A stretch of 55,010 nt of DNA from Candidatus Delongbacteria bacterium (GTDB lineage Bacteria; UBA4055). The stretch covers positions 1 to 55,010 of the forward strand of contig JAFGVM010000006.1 of assembly GCA_016937995.1 (NCBI GenBank), in the 5' to 3' direction. Under the pieces are notes generated by a model that had not been told where the DNA came from, made no database searches, and was given only the letters and a program-made list of their open reading frames with translations. Shown one piece after another: positions 22,920 to 30,340 of the stretch. Position 1 is the first letter of the stretch, and every line of letters begins with the position of its first letter. A program made the position numbers and the translations under genes.

Positions 22920-23448
22920 AATATTCTTAATATTTTTGATACTGACGATCTCGGCATGTACAGTAAAAATTCCTGATATTAAGATAACCGGAGAAAAAAC
23001 AGCTTTGGAAAATCAGGTACTCGGGGAATATTCCAAGATCAAGGAAGATGCATGGATGGTCACTTCTGAAAGAGGAGACGGCCAGATCAGGATAACTGCT
23101 GACCGTAAAGAAGTGGTCGAAGCTGTCAGGGACAGAGAATTCTTGAAGGATGATATCAGCGAACTTAAGATCAAGGGATATCTGGGAGAATTAAACAACG
23201 GTCAAATAGATGTTGTGGATGCTGGTGAAGTGGCAAAACTTAATAAAAAAGAGAAAGACCTTATCAAACTTCTGATGGAAAAAGAAAATAAAGCCCGAAA
23301 ATTGATCATGGAAAGAATAATAGAGACCGATGCTAAATTTAAATCTTCACCTGAAGAGGTCTATCAGGCATTTTTTGTTATGAATCTGGAAGATTCACCA
23401 GAAAATACATTCTATAAAAATAAAAAAGACAAATGGGTTAAGAAGTAG
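22897..23448 (+). CDS. DUF1318 (YdbL-like) lipoprotein
   Basis: A 183-residue predicted lipoprotein: a hydrophobic N-terminus ends in ISAC (lipobox, Cys21), then VTGEKTALE-like sequence (here ITGEKTALENQVLGEY) that marks the DUF1318/YdbL family. The C-terminal half is a highly charged helix with KENKARKLIMERI. The function of the family is unknown; it often accompanies large AsmA/YdbH-type envelope proteins, which are not present here. The start lies inside dapB (ATG at 22897, alternative ATG 22906), so coupling is likely. Its end overlaps the end of the convergent kinase gene by 11 bp. Confidence 0.8.
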   Translation: MEWMIYFKIFLIFLILTISACTVKIPDIKITGEKTALENQVLGEYSKIKEDAWMVTSERGDGQIRITADRKEVVEAVRDREFLKDDISELKIKGYLGELNNGQIDVVDAGEVAKLNKKEKDLIKLLMEKENKARKLIMERIIETDAKFKSSPEEVYQAFFVMNLEDSPENTFYKNKKDKWVKK

Positions 23449-26400
23449 TATTAAAATGCTCAATGATCTTCTGTCCCCTTCTAAAGAAATATGTTGTTTT
23501 AAAGAGTTCTTCCTGAACATTATCCATATTAGCCAGTAAATATTCTTTAATTTCCTCGTAGAAACCTACAAAAGGAGCTATTTTTTCCTTTTCAACTTTA
23601 GCCATCAGAGCAAATTCCATAAATGGAATTATTGAATAAACATTTATCATGGTAAAACCGGCAATATGAAGCTTTTTAGAAAGCTCTAATATGGTGTTTA
23701 TAAGATTTTCATTTTTTGTAAGCATGAACCTTGTGATATTATAGACAAGAAAATCACCTGTGATCTCAGGATTCAAAAATCTCTTCTCTATTTTTCCCAT
23801 TACCTTGTCCATTGGAGGCAGCTTTTTATATTTTTTTGTATAGTGCAAAAGCATCATAGGTGTCTCTAGCTGCAGATTGCCATTCAATATATCATCCATC
23901 TGAGATGGAGACCACCTGTAACAAATATTATGCTCATAGAATACATCCAGACTTTCCTTGTATACCCTATATATCTCATCTGTGAGAACATTATCATCAT
24001 ACAGAGCTTTGATATCTGTCAAAGCTTCTTCTTTGGTAAATATTTCGGGATAATATTTTGCTATCCTGTCAAAATTTGTAAGCAATTTCGCTTCTGTTGA
24101 ATGCCTGAAATATAAATATGCTTTCCTTATAATTTTTTTTGCCGATTTGAAATCCCCTGTTCTGTGATAGAGAATGAATTCGTTAGTTAAAAGTTCGATG
24201 TAAAGTTCCAGTCTGTTTGTTTCTTTTGCCTGCCTTCTGATCTCTCTAAGCAAGCTTATTATTTCTCCCAAAGGATAGTAGAGATTTATCTTTGTAGATA
24301 CAACATCTCCCAGATCATCAAGACTGAGAGATCTTTTTAATTTGTCAGAAAGGTATATTTTCTTATTTTCAAAGTATAGTGCTTTTTCATAATCAGAGGT
24401 ATAGTAATAGTAATTTGCAAGGGTCCTTAATATGAGAAACATATTTTCAGTATCCTTCTCTTTGTAGGCAACCTCTAATCCGTATGTCAACCTCTCGCTA
24501 TAGTCCTGCTCGATACATTCTCTTTCTGCAAATTTTGCCAAAGTACTCAGAAGATAAAAATAGTTGTCGTTGAATATCTTTTTCGATACAAATACATCTA
24601 TGTATTCTGATATTCTTTCCTCCAGATGATCATTCCATGGAATAACTCCATAAACTATCTTCATAGTATCCAGGATTATCTGATACTCTACCAGTTCATC
24701 TTTATCCTTATTGAAATCCTCTTCAAGTATTTTGGTCAACTCAACTCCATTATCATAATATTTCCTGCTCGATAATAAATTATGCAAAACTTCGAACATA
24801 TCATGATAAAATTCTTCAGCAGATAAATTGGCCTTATAGATCTCGAGGTTCTTCCTGACAAAAGAAATGATATTGTAATCATAGTAAAATTCATTATGAA
24901 GATAAAGCTTTATTCTGATGTACTTCAATTTACTTTCAATACTGGTTATCTCTTCCTGGAAAGTTTTTTCAACCGATTTAATGATCTTAACAGCTTTTTC
25001 TATATCAACACCTTCCAGGAAGAAAGCAAAATTCAACTCTAACCGGAATTTTACTTCCTGATCTTCACAAAGCTTAATGCAATTCAGTAGTAAATAATAC
25101 AAATTATCGTTTGTATCACGTTTACGCATGATCTCAACATATTTATTTAAATTCGCAAGTTGAGATATATCAATTCCGTTCAAAATATATTTTAATATCC
25201 TTACTGCTGCTCTTGAGAATTTATCATCTTGATCCAGCTTGATAATTCTCGAATAATACTTTTTTAAAGGTTCTTTTTTGATAGAGCTAAAGATATAGTC
25301 CTTAATTTCACTCTTTACAACTTTATAGAGGTTTTTATAACCTGATATTAATCCAAGATTTACCAGTCTTGACAGAATTTTTTTCAGATCAAAATCACTC
25401 AAAGGTATGAATTTTTTTATTTCTTCAACCGTTAGCTTATTGAATGTTACTGTTAACAATATCAAAATATTTATGTCGTTTTCATCAAGTCCTTTTATAA
25501 GACTTTTCACCGACTTCTTACTGCCTCTTTTCAGAACCTTTATGAAATTGTCCTTGTTTTTGAAGAACAAGACTCCTCCAACATAAGTGATCACATTTTT
25601 CTGAATCAATCCGTCAAAAAATGTCATAAGTGTCCTAAAATTTCCCGCACTGTAATCAAATATAAGTTTATTGAAATTCGATGGCACATTACCGATATCA
25701 CCAAGGAAATATGAAATTACTTTCTCAGTTTCTTCAAATGATAAAGTAGGAACTTCAATGCTCTCTATCTCTGGGTCATATTCAATGAGTTTATAGCTCT
25801 GTTCTATATTCTGTGGCATCTTATCCGTTGTAAGAGAAATAATGAGATATAGACAACCCTCTTTATTTTGACCTATCAATCTGTTGATGAACCTTACCGA
25901 TTCCTGATCATATCTTTCAAAATTATCAAAAATTATCGTGAGCTTATTTTTCCTATCATTTGAACATAAGCACAAAAAATTGATCACATCATCATAAATA
26001 TAAAAATAATCCTGCTCTTTCTCTGCAATGGAATTGATCTCGTTGTTGATTCTTTGATATTCATCCTCGATGTCTACTATTCCCTTGAAGTTGTTATATG
26101 CTTTTTTAAGAAGCAGCTTACCTATTAAAAAATCCTCACTTGTATTATCTTCAAGATACATACGTATGATCTTCTCTAGAGATAATGTGATATTGTAAAA
26201 TATCTGATCCAGTATTTTTGTCTTACCGGATCCTGATACTCCATATAAAAATACGGTTTTACCACTTTTCTTCTGGTCTGTAAGCTTATGGATCTTAAGA
26301 AGATTACTGAAAATATTTTCTCTAAGGATAAACTTGGTATTATTCAAAAAAGATGTTGTGTGAAAGATATTCGGTATAGGATATTTTGTGCCAAATGTAC

Positions 26401-27235
26401 TGTTCAGAACACTTATTGCCTCAATTGCGGACGATATTCTTGTTCCTGGATCTTTCTGGATCAGGTGGGAAATGAAATATTTTATCTTTTTACTCTTAAT
26501 TTCATTAAGTAACTGCCTGTTGTTATCATACATTTCATTTAATGCCTGAAGCAACCTTTCCCCGCTGATCTTCTTTGACAATGATGAATAATAACTTTCC
26601 CCTGCAGTTGCATGGATTACAGCTATTCCAAGAGAGTAAAGATCTATTTTTGGAGATACTTTTGTGGGATCCAGAAAAAACTCAGGTGCGATATATTCTA
26701 TAGTTCCTCTGACCGCTCCCTGCTCTGACAGTGTATTTTTTATCTCAGACAATCCGAAATCTATTAATTTTACGATAAGATCTCCATCATTATCAATTAT
26801 AATGATGTTCTCAGGCTTTATATCAAAATGGATCACCTCATTAGAATGAAGATAATTCAGACCGTCTAAGACCTGATAAACAACATTTGCAAATACATCC
26901 TCACCTAAAGAGTCATTGTAGAATTCTTTTAAATTCAATCCGTTTAGATAGTCCATTGTGTAATAATACTTACCCAGCTTAGTATCATAGCCAAAATCGT
27001 AAACGTTTATAATATTTTTATGATTCAAGGATTTTATGATCGAAAATTCAGATTTTACAGATTCCAGTATGTCTTTTATATGATCTTTCTCTTCTGATGA
27101 AACTTTTATTAATTTTAATGCCAGTTCGATCTTTGATGTGATCGTTTTCACCTGAACTATCATTCCCTGTGAACCGCTTCCCAAGATCTTTTCAACGGTA
27201 TACATAGAATCTATTACTGTACCTATCTCTACCAA
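23438..27235 (-). CDS. Giant Ser/Thr protein kinase with AAA-type ATPase and helical repeat region
   Basis: A predicted cytosolic signalling protein of about 1265 residues. Numbered from the start chosen here, it has a eukaryotic-like kinase domain (about 8-290) with glycine loop LGSGSQG, Lys41 (ALKLIK), catalytic loop HFDIKPEN (Asp138), DFG (Asp159) and GTIEYIAPE. An AAA/NACHT-like ATPase follows, with Walker A GVSGSGKT near 330 and Walker B TIIFDNFE near 430. Then come about 700 residues of TPR-like helices. The catalytic loop has HFD instead of HRD. The start is TTG at 27235, because GGAG lies 6 nt upstream; a longer version from GTG at 27268 lacks such a site. Similar kinase-ATPase-TPR proteins act as regulatory hubs; targets are unknown. 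Confidence 0.88.
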   Translation of the reverse strand: MVEIGTVIDSMYTVEKILGSGSQGMIVQVKTITSKIELALKLIKVSSEEKDHIKDILESVKSEFSIIKSLNHKNIINVYDFGYDTKLGKYYYTMDYLNGLNLKEFYNDSLGEDVFANVVYQVLDGLNYLHSNEVIHFDIKPENIIIIDNDGDLIVKLIDFGLSEIKNTLSEQGAVRGTIEYIAPEFFLDPTKVSPKIDLYSLGIAVIHATAGESYYSSLSKKISGERLLQALNEMYDNNRQLLNEIKSKKIKYFISHLIQKDPGTRISSAIEAISVLNSTFGTKYPIPNIFHTTSFLNNTKFILRENIFSNLLKIHKLTDQKKSGKTVFLYGVSGSGKTKILDQIFYNITLSLEKIIRMYLEDNTSEDFLIGKLLLKKAYNNFKGIVDIEDEYQRINNEINSIAEKEQDYFYIYDDVINFLCLCSNDRKNKLTIIFDNFERYDQESVRFINRLIGQNKEGCLYLIISLTTDKMPQNIEQSYKLIEYDPEIESIEVPTLSFEETEKVISYFLGDIGNVPSNFNKLIFDYSAGNFRTLMTFFDGLIQKNVITYVGGVLFFKNKDNFIKVLKRGSKKSVKSLIKGLDENDINILILLTVTFNKLTVEEIKKFIPLSDFDLKKILSRLVNLGLISGYKNLYKVVKSEIKDYIFSSIKKEPLKKYYSRIIKLDQDDKFSRAAVRILKYILNGIDISQLANLNKYVEIMRKRDTNDNLYYLLLNCIKLCEDQEVKFRLELNFAFFLEGVDIEKAVKIIKSVEKTFQEEITSIESKLKYIRIKLYLHNEFYYDYNIISFVRKNLEIYKANLSAEEFYHDMFEVLHNLLSSRKYYDNGVELTKILEEDFNKDKDELVEYQIILDTMKIVYGVIPWNDHLEERISEYIDVFVSKKIFNDNYFYLLSTLAKFAERECIEQDYSERLTYGLEVAYKEKDTENMFLILRTLANYYYYTSDYEKALYFENKKIYLSDKLKRSLSLDDLGDVVSTKINLYYPLGEIISLLREIRRQAKETNRLELYIELLTNEFILYHRTGDFKSAKKIIRKAYLYFRHSTEAKLLTNFDRIAKYYPEIFTKEEALTDIKALYDDNVLTDEIYRVYKESLDVFYEHNICYRWSPSQMDDILNGNLQLETPMMLLHYTKKYKKLPPMDKVMGKIEKRFLNPEITGDFLVYNITRFMLTKNENLINTILELSKKLHIAGFTMINVYSIIPFMEFALMAKVEKEKIAPFVGFYEEIKEYLLANMDNVQEELFKTTYFFRRGQKIIEHFNTTS

Positions 27236-27410
27236 TTCATACTCCGAACAAAATGTAATTTTTATCACAGACCCGATGTTTAAATTAATTTTACCATTAT
27301 TTAAACCCGTCGATATGCTGTTAATAGCTTATACTGTAATAATAAGTAATAGTTTTTCCTTACACAAACACTAATATATTAATTATCGACCATCATTTGC
27401 AACATATCAC

Positions 27411-27442
27411 TTTGACATTTAAAAGCAAATTCATTACCTTGC
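27411..27442 (+). promoter_or_regulatory. Candidate promoter of the moa leader
   Basis: TTTG (27411-27414, part of a perfect TTGACA) and TACCTTGC (27435-27442), separated by 20 nt, fit the Bacteroidota-type promoter. A start a few bases later would begin the transcript just ahead of the riboswitch-like leader. Confidence 0.45.
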
Positions 27443-27454
27443 TATCCTGTTTAA

Positions 27455-27552
27455 TAACCTCTGAAGTCATTAAGTCTAAGGCCTGCTACGATTAAATGAC
27501 CATTGGGCCGGATGTGAAAACTACCGACCTCCCGGAATAGGAAAGGAGTATC
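27455..27552 (+). ncRNA. Moco-riboswitch-like leader of moaA
   Basis: The untranslated leader of moaA is compact and structured. GTCATT (27466-27471) pairs with AATGAC (27495-27500), GGCC (27480-27483) with GGCC (27506-27509), and CCGG/CCGG brackets the segment containing GACCTCCCGG. CTCC can also pair with the moaA Shine-Dalgarno (AAAGGAG), which suggests control of translation. From memory, the GGCCGGATGTG and ACCGACCTCCC elements look like the conserved part of the Moco RNA motif (Rfam MOCO_RNA_motif). Combined with its place in front of moaA, this makes a molybdenum/tungsten cofactor riboswitch the best call. I could not run a covariance model. Confidence 0.6.
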
Positions 27553-28353
27553 ATGAAGGATAATTACAATCGAGATATAACCTACTTAAGGATTTCTGTT
27601 ACCGACAGATGTAATCTAAGATGCACATATTGTATGCCTGAAGAAGGTATTGATCTTATCCCGCACAATGACCTGTTAAGCTTTGAAGATATCGTCGAAT
27701 TTACAAGAACTGCTGTATCAATGGGAATAAACAAAGTTAGATTGACCGGTGGAGAACCACTGGTAAGAAAAGGAATCGTTGATCTTGTCAGAATGCTCTG
27801 GAATATTGAAGGGATCAAAGACCTTTCTTTAACAACCAATGCTGTCCTTCTGAAAGAATTTGCAAAGCCACTGAAAAATGCCGGCCTTCAGCGGATCAAT
27901 ATCAGCCTGGACAGCTTAGATAAAGAACGGTTTGCACAGATCACAAGGAGAGATAAATTAACTGAAGTTCTTGAAGGTATAGAAGAAGCTATAAGAGTAG
28001 GTTTCAAACAGATCAAATTAAATTGTGTCATTGAAAAAAGTAAGAACGAACCGGATGCGGTGGCAGTTTCAAAATATGCTGAAGAGAAAGGTCTGCAGGT
28101 CCGTTTCATTAGAACTATGAACCTGGAAAAAGGTGAGTTCTGGATCGTGGATGGTGGAGAAGGTGGAAATTGCTCAATTTGTAACCGCATAAGACTTTCA
28201 AGCTGTGGAAAAGTCTTACCGTGCCTTTTCAGTGATCTGGGATACAGTATCAGGGAATTTGGAAATGAAAAAGCAATTCTTCTTGCCCTTGAAAATAAAC
28301 CAAAATCAGGTACTGTAAGCTCAAACAACCAGTTCTATACAGTTGGAGGTTAA
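27553..28353 (+). CDS. moaA: GTP 3',8-cyclase (MoaA), short form
   Basis: Radical SAM enzyme that starts molybdopterin synthesis by rearranging GTP. The first cluster motif is CNLRCTYC (CX3CX2C, about residues 17-24) and LTGGEPL follows. The C-terminal GTP-side cluster is CSICNRIRL with the third cysteine in PCLF (CX2CX13C), and the protein ends in the expected GG. At 266 residues it is about 60 shorter than E. coli MoaA: the segment normally lying between RFI.. and the second cluster is reduced to about 20 residues (NLEKGEFWIVDGGEGGN). Both clusters are intact, so it should be active. GGAG lies 7 nt before the ATG. moaC starts 1 bp after its stop. Confidence 0.9.
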   Translation: MKDNYNRDITYLRISVTDRCNLRCTYCMPEEGIDLIPHNDLLSFEDIVEFTRTAVSMGINKVRLTGGEPLVRKGIVDLVRMLWNIEGIKDLSLTTNAVLLKEFAKPLKNAGLQRINISLDSLDKERFAQITRRDKLTEVLEGIEEAIRVGFKQIKLNCVIEKSKNEPDAVAVSKYAEEKGLQVRFIRTMNLEKGEFWIVDGGEGGNCSICNRIRLSSCGKVLPCLFSDLGYSIREFGNEKAILLALENKPKSGTVSSNNQFYTVGG

Positions 28354-28354
28354 T

Positions 28355-28813
28355 ATGTCAGATAAGTTTTCACATGTTGATGAAAATGGAAAAGCTAACA
28401 TGGTCGATGTCGGTCAGAAACCTGATGTTATCAGAACTGCTTCGGCTGAAGGTAAGATATATCTTAACTCAACAGCCATGGATCTTATTAAAGTTAATAA
28501 AAATAAAAAAGGTGATGTTCTTACAACTGCACAGATCGCCGGTATTCAGGGTGGAAAAAGAACTTCAGATCTGATCCCGCTCTGCCATCCGTTAATGATC
28601 ACTAAACTTGACGTTAACACAGAACTGATGTCAGATCACATTAAAGTTACAAGTTTTGCAAAGTGTATTGGTAAAACCGGTATTGAAATGGAGGCTTTAA
28701 CTGCTGTAAATATCGCCCTTTTAACGATTTATGATATGTGTAAAGCAGTGGATAAGACAATGGTAATCTCTGATGTAAAATTAATTTCTAAGACAAAGGA
28801 AAATTTAACATAA
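28355..28813 (+). CDS. moaC: Cyclic pyranopterin monophosphate synthase (MoaC)
   Basis: MoaC turns the MoaA product into cyclic pyranopterin monophosphate. The 152 residues show GIQGGKRTSDLIPLCHPL and GKTGIEMEALTAVNIALLTIYDM, the active-site regions of the family. The start is ATG at 28355, preceded by GGAGGT inside the end of moaA; a TTG 12 bases earlier only extends the frame. The 1-bp gap to moaA implies coupling. The window encodes no MoaD, MoaE or MoeA, so the later steps must be elsewhere or absent. Confidence 0.95.
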   Translation: MSDKFSHVDENGKANMVDVGQKPDVIRTASAEGKIYLNSTAMDLIKVNKNKKGDVLTTAQIAGIQGGKRTSDLIPLCHPLMITKLDVNTELMSDHIKVTSFAKCIGKTGIEMEALTAVNIALLTIYDMCKAVDKTMVISDVKLISKTKENLT

Positions 28814-28963: not shown

Positions 28964-29413
28964 ATGATACAGACCGGTAAGATCAAGGCAATATGTATCT
29001 CAGAGAAAAAAGGAACTGAGAAATTTACTATAAAAGAAGCTATTGTTAATGAACTTGGTATCATTGATGATGCTCACGCAGGTGATTGGCATAGACAGAT
29101 CAGCTTACTTTCTGCAGAAGAAGTAGATAAGTTTACGACTAATAATCCAAAGGTCACTATTGTTGATGGAGCTTTCGGGGAGAATATCCTGCTTGAAGGG
29201 ATCGATCTTTGTAAGTCCAGGATCGGTGATAAAATCATTATCGGTGATGTTGAACTTGAAGTTACTCAGATCGGTAAAGAATGTCATGGTGACGGTTGTA
29301 CCATTTTTCAGGCAGTTGGCAAGTGTATTATGCCTAAAGTAGGTATTTTTTCTAAAGTACTAAAGGCAGGTAGAATTAAAACTGGTGACAAAGTTATATA
29401 TAAATCTATATAA
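28964..29413 (+). CDS. MOSC domain protein
   Basis: A 149-residue single MOSC domain protein. MOSC domains are related to the C-terminal domain of molybdenum cofactor sulfurases and bind or hand over cofactor or sulfur. Motifs DAHAGDWHRQISLL, FGENILLEGI and IGKECHGDGC with later KVGIF, GDKV fit the small stand-alone type, and the cysteines in ECHGDGC are the usual conserved ones. It is followed 9 bp later by a second MOSC gene, fused to MogA. Both are paralogs and probably arose by tandem duplication. Confidence 0.88.
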   Translation: MIQTGKIKAICISEKKGTEKFTIKEAIVNELGIIDDAHAGDWHRQISLLSAEEVDKFTTNNPKVTIVDGAFGENILLEGIDLCKSRIGDKIIIGDVELEVTQIGKECHGDGCTIFQAVGKCIMPKVGIFSKVLKAGRIKTGDKVIYKSI

Positions 29414-29422
29414 GGTGTCACA

Positions 29423-30340
29423 ATGATAACGATTAAGCAGATAAATATTTCAACAGAACGCGGAACTGCTAAATTTCCTGTTGAATCCGCAGTCATAAAT
29501 GAAAATGGTATCGAAGACGATGCTCACTCGGGTGACTGGCATAGACAGATCACTATTTTAGCCGAGGAAAGTGTTATAAAATTTGAGAAAGAGACTGGTA
29601 GAAGGACTAAATCAGGAGAATTCGCAACTAATATTATGATCAACGGATTAGATACTTCTAAAGTTAAGATCGGTGACAGAATTATTCTCAACGATGCAGA
29701 AGTGGAAGTTACTCAGATCGGAAAAGAACCACATTTTTACGATAGTCCTGTGTTGAAGGATACGGGCAGAAATATCATGTTCGATGAAGGATTGTTCGCA
29801 AAGGTTCTTAAAACGGGAAAAATTAAGATCGGAGATAAAATGGACTATATCAAGAGACCTTTAAGATTATGTATAATCACATTGAGTGACAGAGTTTCTC
29901 AGGGTATTTACGAGGATAGAAGCGGCCCAAAGATAAAAGAAAGGTTGCTTGAACACTATAGTAAAATCTCGACCGATATTACTGTTGAAGTAATTCCTGA
30001 TGATAAGAATAAGCTTGATACTTTGCTGAAAAGATATACCGATGATAAAGTTGATGCGATATTCACAACAGGTGGAACAGGAGTCGGTCCTAGAGATATT
30101 ACTCCAGATGCTGTTACGATCTTTGCCGATAAGCTGATACCCGGGATCATGGACCATATCCGGATGAAATACGGGAAAACTATTCCAAATGCACTTTTAA
30201 GCAGGTCTGTTGCTGCAGTAAAAGATAAAACTTTAATTTATACACTCCCCGGCAGTGTGAAAGCTGTGACAGAATATATGGATGAGATCTTAAAAACGAT
30301 CGATCATCTATTTAAAATGCTGAATGGAGAAGGGCATTAG
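29423..30340 (+). CDS. MOSC-MogA/MoaB fusion protein
   Basis: A 305-residue two-domain protein. Residues about 1-140 are a MOSC domain close to its upstream neighbour (DAHSGDWHRQITIL, IGKEPHF). Residues about 147-305 are a MogA/MoaB domain (ITLSDRVSQGIYEDRSGP, TTGGTGVGPRDITPDA, LPGSVKAV) that adenylylates molybdopterin before metal insertion. The MOSC half has lost the cysteines of its neighbour (IGKEPHFYDS instead of IGKECHGDGC), so it may have become a binding or structural part. The gene is last in the moaA-moaC-MOSC run and completes a set for early and adenylylation steps; MPT synthase and MoeA are not seen nearby. Confidence 0.9.
   Translation: MITIKQINISTERGTAKFPVESAVINENGIEDDAHSGDWHRQITILAEESVIKFEKETGRRTKSGEFATNIMINGLDTSKVKIGDRIILNDAEVEVTQIGKEPHFYDSPVLKDTGRNIMFDEGLFAKVLKTGKIKIGDKMDYIKRPLRLCIITLSDRVSQGIYEDRSGPKIKERLLEHYSKISTDITVEVIPDDKNKLDTLLKRYTDDKVDAIFTTGGTGVGPRDITPDAVTIFADKLIPGIMDHIRMKYGKTIPNALLSRSVAAVKDKTLIYTLPGSVKAVTEYMDEILKTIDHLFKMLNGEGH

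Follow-up and report, generated by a model that had tools for sequence, protein, structure and literature searches.

A predicted P3-less Moco RNA ahead of moaA in Candidatus Delongbacteria and its sister RNAs ahead of TonB receptor and ECF transporter genes

For RNAs of the Moco class (RF01055), the main point of comparison is the study by Regulski et al. (2008, PMC2408646). The Escherichia coli moaABCDE leader is described there as a translational platform in which the ribosome-binding site before moaA lies in helix P1; this RNA carries P3 and responds to the molybdenum cofactor (Moco). RNAs without P3 form a putative subclass for the tungsten cofactor (Tuco), with Tuco genes present in 17 of the 19 organisms concerned; the rule is correlative, deletion of P3 from the E. 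coli RNA having abolished control with no change of specificity, and some P3-less RNAs precede putative Mo enzymes (PMC2408646). In Caldithrix abyssi, an anaerobe of another phylum, a Moco RNA is likewise located in a locus with moaA, moaC, moeA and MOSC genes; its reported distance to the gene downstream for an MFS-type molybdate transporter is 1130 nt, and the TonB receptors are assigned to nickel, cobalamin and thiamine in the accessible part of that report (PMC5317091). TonB receptors controlled by cobalamin and TPP riboswitches (PMC5317091, same part) provide the precedent for a cofactor riboswitch before a TonB receptor gene, whereas the cofactor in the systems described below would be Moco/Tuco, or W. 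An outer-membrane step in molybdate uptake is also described for Pseudomonas aeruginosa, with secreted ModA and outer-membrane IcmP; there, however, IcmP is described as a metalloproteinase and ModA as T6SS-secreted, and the accessible text of PMC8602904 names no riboswitch, TonB receptor or ECF transporter. A literature search with subscription papers mostly outside its reach, and hence weak as evidence, found no report of a Moco/Tuco riboswitch before a TonB receptor; the terms 'Moco RNA motif' and 'TonB' occurred together only in PMC5317091, where, in the part available, the RNA is near the MFS transporter.

The window, a stretch of 55,010 nucleotides from the Candidatus Delongbacteria genome G000, contains a single Rfam match above cut-off, a full-length hit to the Moco RNA model (model positions 1-135) that scores 50.8 bits, where the gathering threshold is 36 bits, with an E-value of 2.8e-09 computed for the whole 55-kb window (Table 1). 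An earlier note, made from the sequence alone, had remarked that the leader resembles the Moco RNA motif and had suggested running the Rfam covariance model and looking for conservation in related genomes; the clear match and the recurrence of the RNA before moaA in G001, G002, G005, G008 and G011 confirm that claim. The interval that it gave, 27455-27552, captures a real element but ends slightly short of the model match on both sides, and its designation as a molybdenum-cofactor riboswitch holds for the class, whereas the lack of P3 makes the tungsten cofactor a better candidate than Moco. Judged by the covariance match, the element is a genuine Moco RNA, another member of a known riboswitch class, with which it shares the GAAA loop, the receptor-like bulge, the Shine-Dalgarno sequence (SD) in P1 and moaA downstream. 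It lacks P3, as the corresponding model positions are deleted in the alignment, leaving just 4 nt between P2 and P4, and thus resembles the putative Tuco subclass; the UBP11/UBA4055 family to which the window belongs is not among the groups that the abstract of PMC2408646 names.

Table 1. Components of the Moco RNA locus, in window coordinates, and genomes that combine the 245-aa protein with a TonB receptor
Feature	Position	Strand	Basis or remark
Moco/Tuco riboswitch aptamer, RF01055, P3-less	27447..27564	+	covariance model
P1, 5' strand	27457..27462	+	CUCU 27459-27462 pairs with SD; model alignment and fold
P2 hairpin, tetraloop-receptor-like bulge CUAAG..CUACG	27466..27500	+	model alignment
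P4 hairpin, GAAA tetraloop 27516-27519	27505..27530	+	model alignment
P5	27531..27541	+	model alignment
P1, 3' strand, including moaA SD GGAG 27545-27548	27545..27550	+	model alignment
moaA, 266 aa	27553..28353	+	TIGR02666, 291.6 bits against a cut-off of 284.05
moaC	28355..28813	+	profile match
MOSC-domain protein	28964..29413	+	profile match
MOSC - MoaB/MogA fusion	29423..30340	+	profile match
245-aa protein with TonB receptor in run			G000, G010, G011, G036, G054, G130, G273, G326

P1 consists of four good pairs that engage the SD of moaA (ATG at 27553), followed by two model pairs that are non-standard. The earlier note had instead assigned the SD to a CTCC (CUCC in the RNA) within GACCUCCCGG; this pairing was rejected, both the family structure and the free fold of the 118-nt RNA using the CUCU of P1. 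By eye, the P2 bulge is close to the consensus CUAAG..UAUGG; GGCCGGATGTG lies within the 5' strand of P4, and GACCTCCCGG comprises the 3' strand of P4 together with P5. With its 50.8 bits, the window copy is one of the weaker members, and seven of its pairs in the alignment to the model are non-standard. Although the free fold contains P1, P2, P4 and P5, its energy is no better than that of shuffled sequences (z +0.77; 156 of 200 shuffles fold as well), the centroid structure lacks P1, and the minimum free energy structure with 20 extra downstream bases forms neither P1 nor P5. Fold energy was rejected as support for the element on account of this z value and the loss of P1 in the longer fold, so that the evidence for the element comes from the covariance model and from conservation.

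RF01055 sites were detected in 10 of the 13 genomes of the family, with two in G000 and none found in G003, G004 and G012. All 21 family copies lack P3 (alignment, by eye), and the GAAA loop and the 3' strand GGAAAGGAG are invariant across them. When the structure of the window copy was laid on the alignment of all 21 sites, 75.5% of the structure cells could pair, compared with 67.3% in shuffled and at most 57.2% in slid controls; 94 cells were changed on both sides (46.9 in shuffles, none of 500 as high), and such changes affected 23 of the 36 pairs (18.5 in shuffles). The helices are thus kept by covariation in relatives, beyond both types of control. The number of further pair types did not exceed that of shuffles (143 of 500 as high), and pairing was retained in 68.3% of the family cells of P1 and 46.0% of those of the outer helix.

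The run behind the RNA, moaA-moaC-MOSC-MOSC/MogA, differs from E. coli moaABCDE in having no moaD or moaE. The moaA product retains CX3CX2C, CX2CX13C and a GG C-terminus (by eye), which we take to be the MoaA motifs. The moaC and MOSC genes are separated by a 150-base gap; co-transcription of the MOSC gene and of the MOSC-MoaB/MogA fusion gene is therefore something that we only infer, as is co-regulation of moaC, MOSC and the fusion with moaA. The MoaA protein itself is short, PF06463 covering just positions 57-103 of 128 at a score below cut-off; its C-terminal Cys motif is intact, and both G011 copies are likewise 266 aa long. On the minus strand, a divergent gene at 23438-27268 encodes a Ser/Thr kinase (PF00069) of 1276 aa that also gives a weak AAA/STAND-like match, and similar frames adjoin the RNA in G001 and G002.

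We consider it highly likely that this P3-less Moco RNA represses translation of moaA and that the ligand would most likely be Tuco; direction of control and ligand are what we infer, from a sequence, a family structure, a conservation pattern, a position of the SD in P1 and a gene order that are all observed. Given that the moaA SD is part of P1, ligand binding should block moaA translation, as in the platform described for E. coli moaA (PMC2408646). Under this scheme, a plentiful cytoplasmic molybdopterin cofactor, most likely in its tungsten form, would bind the P1-P2-P4-P5 aptamer and stabilise P1, which holds the SD, so that moaA, and probably also the genes that follow it, would not be translated; without ligand, P1 would open and molybdopterin (MPT) synthesis would resume. 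That the element acts mainly by terminating transcription or by RNA decay, and not by masking the SD, appears quite improbable. TonB-type sister leaders (see below) do have a U-tract behind a long-range helix, but no terminator-like site was found at 27250-27600, and there would be no room for one since moaA starts within the aptamer match. Against the main reading itself stands that no promoter-like site was found on the plus strand before the aptamer. The modest score, the weak outer P1 and the unremarkable fold energy could in turn be taken to indicate a decayed or chance look-alike without function, which is hard to believe in view of the E-value, the compensatory changes and the same position before moaA in five relatives.

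A more serious alternative, if still an unlikely one, retains the riboswitch and the platform and changes the ligand to Moco or to either cofactor. Absence of P3 is merely correlated with Tuco, and the putative Mo enzymes mentioned above lie behind some P3-less RNAs in PMC2408646. Signs of tungsten use are set against this: aldehyde ferredoxin oxidoreductase (AOR) matches were obtained in 11 of the 14 searched genomes, including G000, which has one AOR-type gene with an AOR N-domain (G000:C97) near a ThiF/HesA-like ORF (by eye), and sister RNAs precede TupA-type tungstate transporter genes in G005, G006, G009, G010 and G011 and WtpA genes in G001 and G008. The TupA profile matched 5 of the 14 genomes, at scores below the curated cut-off of the model, and WtpA 4 of 14, with no TupA- or WtpA-type transporter detected by these profiles in G000. 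G002 and G007, both with the RNA, gave no AOR match (G002 is 79% complete), which favours Moco, as does the possibility that the formate dehydrogenase-like ORFs of relatives, with an in-frame TGA, use Mo or W; the sole PF00384 match of G000 is a large NuoG/Fdh-like fusion ORF. Collectively, the absence of P3, the AOR gene and the tup/wtp genes behind sister RNAs suggest that Tuco is likelier than Moco as the ligand.

Two features of the tungsten- and formate-related genes deserve mention in their own right. In G006:C17, G011:C7, G003:C130, G005:C43 and G002:C166, among others, PF00384 frames of formate dehydrogenase type each contain a single in-frame TGA, which probably encodes selenocysteine. 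The TupA/WtpA leaders (L036, L039, L042, L043, L045, L048) share an element downstream of the RNA, CUCAUUCC in most and CUGUUCC in L039, that can pair either with GGAAAGGAG of the aptamer, as in several free folds, or with the AAGGAG of the gene (by eye), making a two-state OFF platform plausible.

The second Moco RNA of G000 (L003 5808-5926, 58.3 bits), also P3-less, precedes genes for a lipoprotein, a TonB-dependent receptor (PF00593, PF07715) and a 245-aa protein; as it heads a TonB operon, an uptake step at the outer membrane of this organism is probably under the same cofactor signal, too. Six of the 21 family RNAs head such lipoprotein and TonB receptor operons, of which those of G000, G010 (with the receptor frame broken in the assembly) and G011 include the 245-aa protein, and those of G005, G006 and G009 (cut by the contig end) encode a different receptor type. 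A structure model of the G000 lipoprotein was unusable (pLDDT 64.5, three sequences). In the TonB-type leaders (e.g., L003 5900-6060), the aptamer core segment CCGUGCUU(GG) could pair with an element further downstream that a U-tract follows, in a helix register that differs in G000 from the others. This helix beats most of 300 mononucleotide shuffles in four of the six leaders (fractions of 0.007-0.023), is weaker in G011 (0.087), and is not better than the shuffles in G010 (0.51). A terminator at this position would constitute an ON switch, unsuited to an uptake gene, and we therefore claim no direction of control for these leaders.

A sample of 386 genomes yielded 101 RNAs over cut-off outside the family of the window, and 92 of these, from 70 genomes, were examined; the stretch read contained at least three same-strand genes for 67 RNAs, two for 19, one for five and none for one. 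In 83 of the 92 cases no TonB gene lies downstream in the stretch read, and most of these 83 RNAs are followed by tup, wtp, mod, moa, moe or AOR genes. A TonB receptor gene is the first gene in four cases (G117, G146, G147 and G273) and the second in two (G158 and G294), behind a lipoprotein 29-30% identical to that of the family, and three further RNAs reach one later in the run: tandem RNAs of G326 (L125 1957-2082 and 2236-2360) head the run tupA-TonB-EcfA-EcfT-DDT-S, and one RNA of G054 heads a long same-strand run with TonB-EcfA-EcfT-DDT-S about 7.7 kb on. The L155 RNA of G226 precedes tupA-tupB, with a receptor-like frame upstream of the RNA. The RNA is present in six of the seven genomes examined from the phylum of G117. 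A TonB receptor gene lies no more than about 40 bases from five of these six RNAs, and the remaining one (Candidatus Mcinerneyibacteriota) precedes genes for an ECF S component, EcfA, EcfT and a MobB-like protein.

A link to ECF transporters is most elaborate in the RNA-headed operons of G005 and G006, which encode, in order, a lipoprotein, the TonB receptor, a lipoprotein with the molybdopterin domain PF00174, an ECF S component (PF09819), a phosphodiesterase/nucleotide pyrophosphatase (PF01663), a second PF00174-like protein, two EcfA, EcfT, MobB with an FeS domain and, last, a protein that weakly resembles kinases (APH, below cut-off). A scan for this cluster returned five loci, four of them with an RNA over cut-off; in the cultured Geosporobacter ferrireducens IRF9, the same gene set, minus the lipoprotein and the TonB receptor, has a P3-less Moco RNA on either side and is extended by additional PF00174 proteins, of which one is carried on an S-layer anchor and another has an FMN-binding domain. 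No convincing solved relative was found for one of these Geosporobacter proteins (best E 0.33). Sulphite-oxidase-type enzymes need a Cys in the PF00174 stretch. Four of the five proteins checked have no Cys at all in the matched stretch, and the single Cys of the fifth is absent from its G005 counterpart; ligand binding therefore fits these sequences better than catalysis, and we regard it as their putative role. The ECF S profile matched 11 of the 386 genomes, four of them weakly. The RNA heads the run of the ECF cluster in G005, G006, Geosporobacter, G149, G054 and G326; none was found in the 20.5 kb of L100 or in the G115 genome, and G158, G294, G117 and G147 have RNAs elsewhere in the genome and none at the cluster, so that an ECF cluster can occur without the RNA beside it. 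A weak match in G304 was discarded, its 4.6-kb contig containing no such cluster.

The 245-aa protein, present in 9 of the 386 genomes, matches TiaS and methanogenesis marker 11 weakly, far below cut-offs. Its structure model (pLDDT 90, eight sequences) gave archaeal TiaS structures as best hits (Foldseek E 3e-09, probability 1.0), with about 160 aligned columns and a TM-score of 0.47 of the query. TiaS has a kinase domain, and from the TiaS fold of the model a kinase-type role on an imported compound can be suggested. In eight of the nine genomes, a TonB receptor gene is in the same run with at most two genes between (Table 1), and none was seen in that of G153. No RNA was found at the locus for the TonB-DDT modules of G036 and G130 or for the DDT gene of G153. 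In each of the six genomes from outside the family that have the 245-aa protein, a gene beside it encodes what by eye is an S-like membrane protein, and the ECF S profile supports three of these six.

The receptors might nevertheless import an unrelated substrate such as iron or a vitamin, with the neighbouring RNA incidental. Substrates of TonB receptors are unreadable from sequence, only general receptor models match here, and for 83 of the 92 examined RNAs outside the family no TonB gene lies downstream in the stretch read. The 16 searched genomes, however, contain only 3-8 plug domains each, so that chance adjacency should be below 1% per RNA if a genome is roughly taken to have a few thousand genes, and yet a TonB gene is first or second behind the RNA in four families of genomes (f1, f106, f142 and f207). 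Several RNA-headed runs also include tupA, ECF, MobB or PF00174 genes, and we consider an incidental neighbourhood rather improbable.

A further set of Moco RNAs lies directly upstream of an aldehyde dehydrogenase-like ORF (541-556 aa in the strong, complete cases): L099 15547-15667, L136 8081-8199, L137 9242-9360, L189 16-137 and L144 1501-1640, with L066 and L173 as weaker cases. The aldehyde dehydrogenase label was given by eye and by similarity only. The arrangement is seen in Geosporobacter and, within the 92 RNAs examined, clearly in four genomes and less clearly in two; P3 seems to be present in the L144 RNA. By analogy, the arrangement may represent an isozyme switch that provides a tungsten-free aldehyde enzyme when Tuco for AOR is short, comparable to B12 riboswitches before metE.

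For the sister RNAs, we propose that P3-less Moco RNAs control a likely TonB/ECF-dependent route by which cells would acquire tungsten or the pyranopterin cofactor itself. In its strongest form, which we put forward tentatively as possible rather than probable, these RNAs would control an unrecognised acquisition route, the salvage of Tuco/Moco or its pterin, analogous to the scavenging of vitamin B12 or haem. The TonB receptor and the lipoprotein would act at the outer membrane, the non-catalytic PF00174 domains would bind the pyranopterin, the phosphodiesterase would cut a dinucleotide form, the ECF transporter would carry the compound over the inner membrane, and a kinase (DDT/TiaS-like or APH-like) together with MobB would re-activate it. 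A milder version would involve TonB/ECF uptake of tungstate or a tungsten chelate.

With the element of the window, a known riboswitch class gains a member from a little-studied phylum. The sister RNAs offer a handle on how scarce tungsten or a labile cofactor may pass the outer membrane of Gram-negative bacteria, a subject on which the literature search brought up little: a cofactor-sensing RNA before a TonB receptor gene would suggest a testable substrate class for both the receptor and the ECF transporter, the cluster for the latter being also present in the cultured G. ferrireducens.
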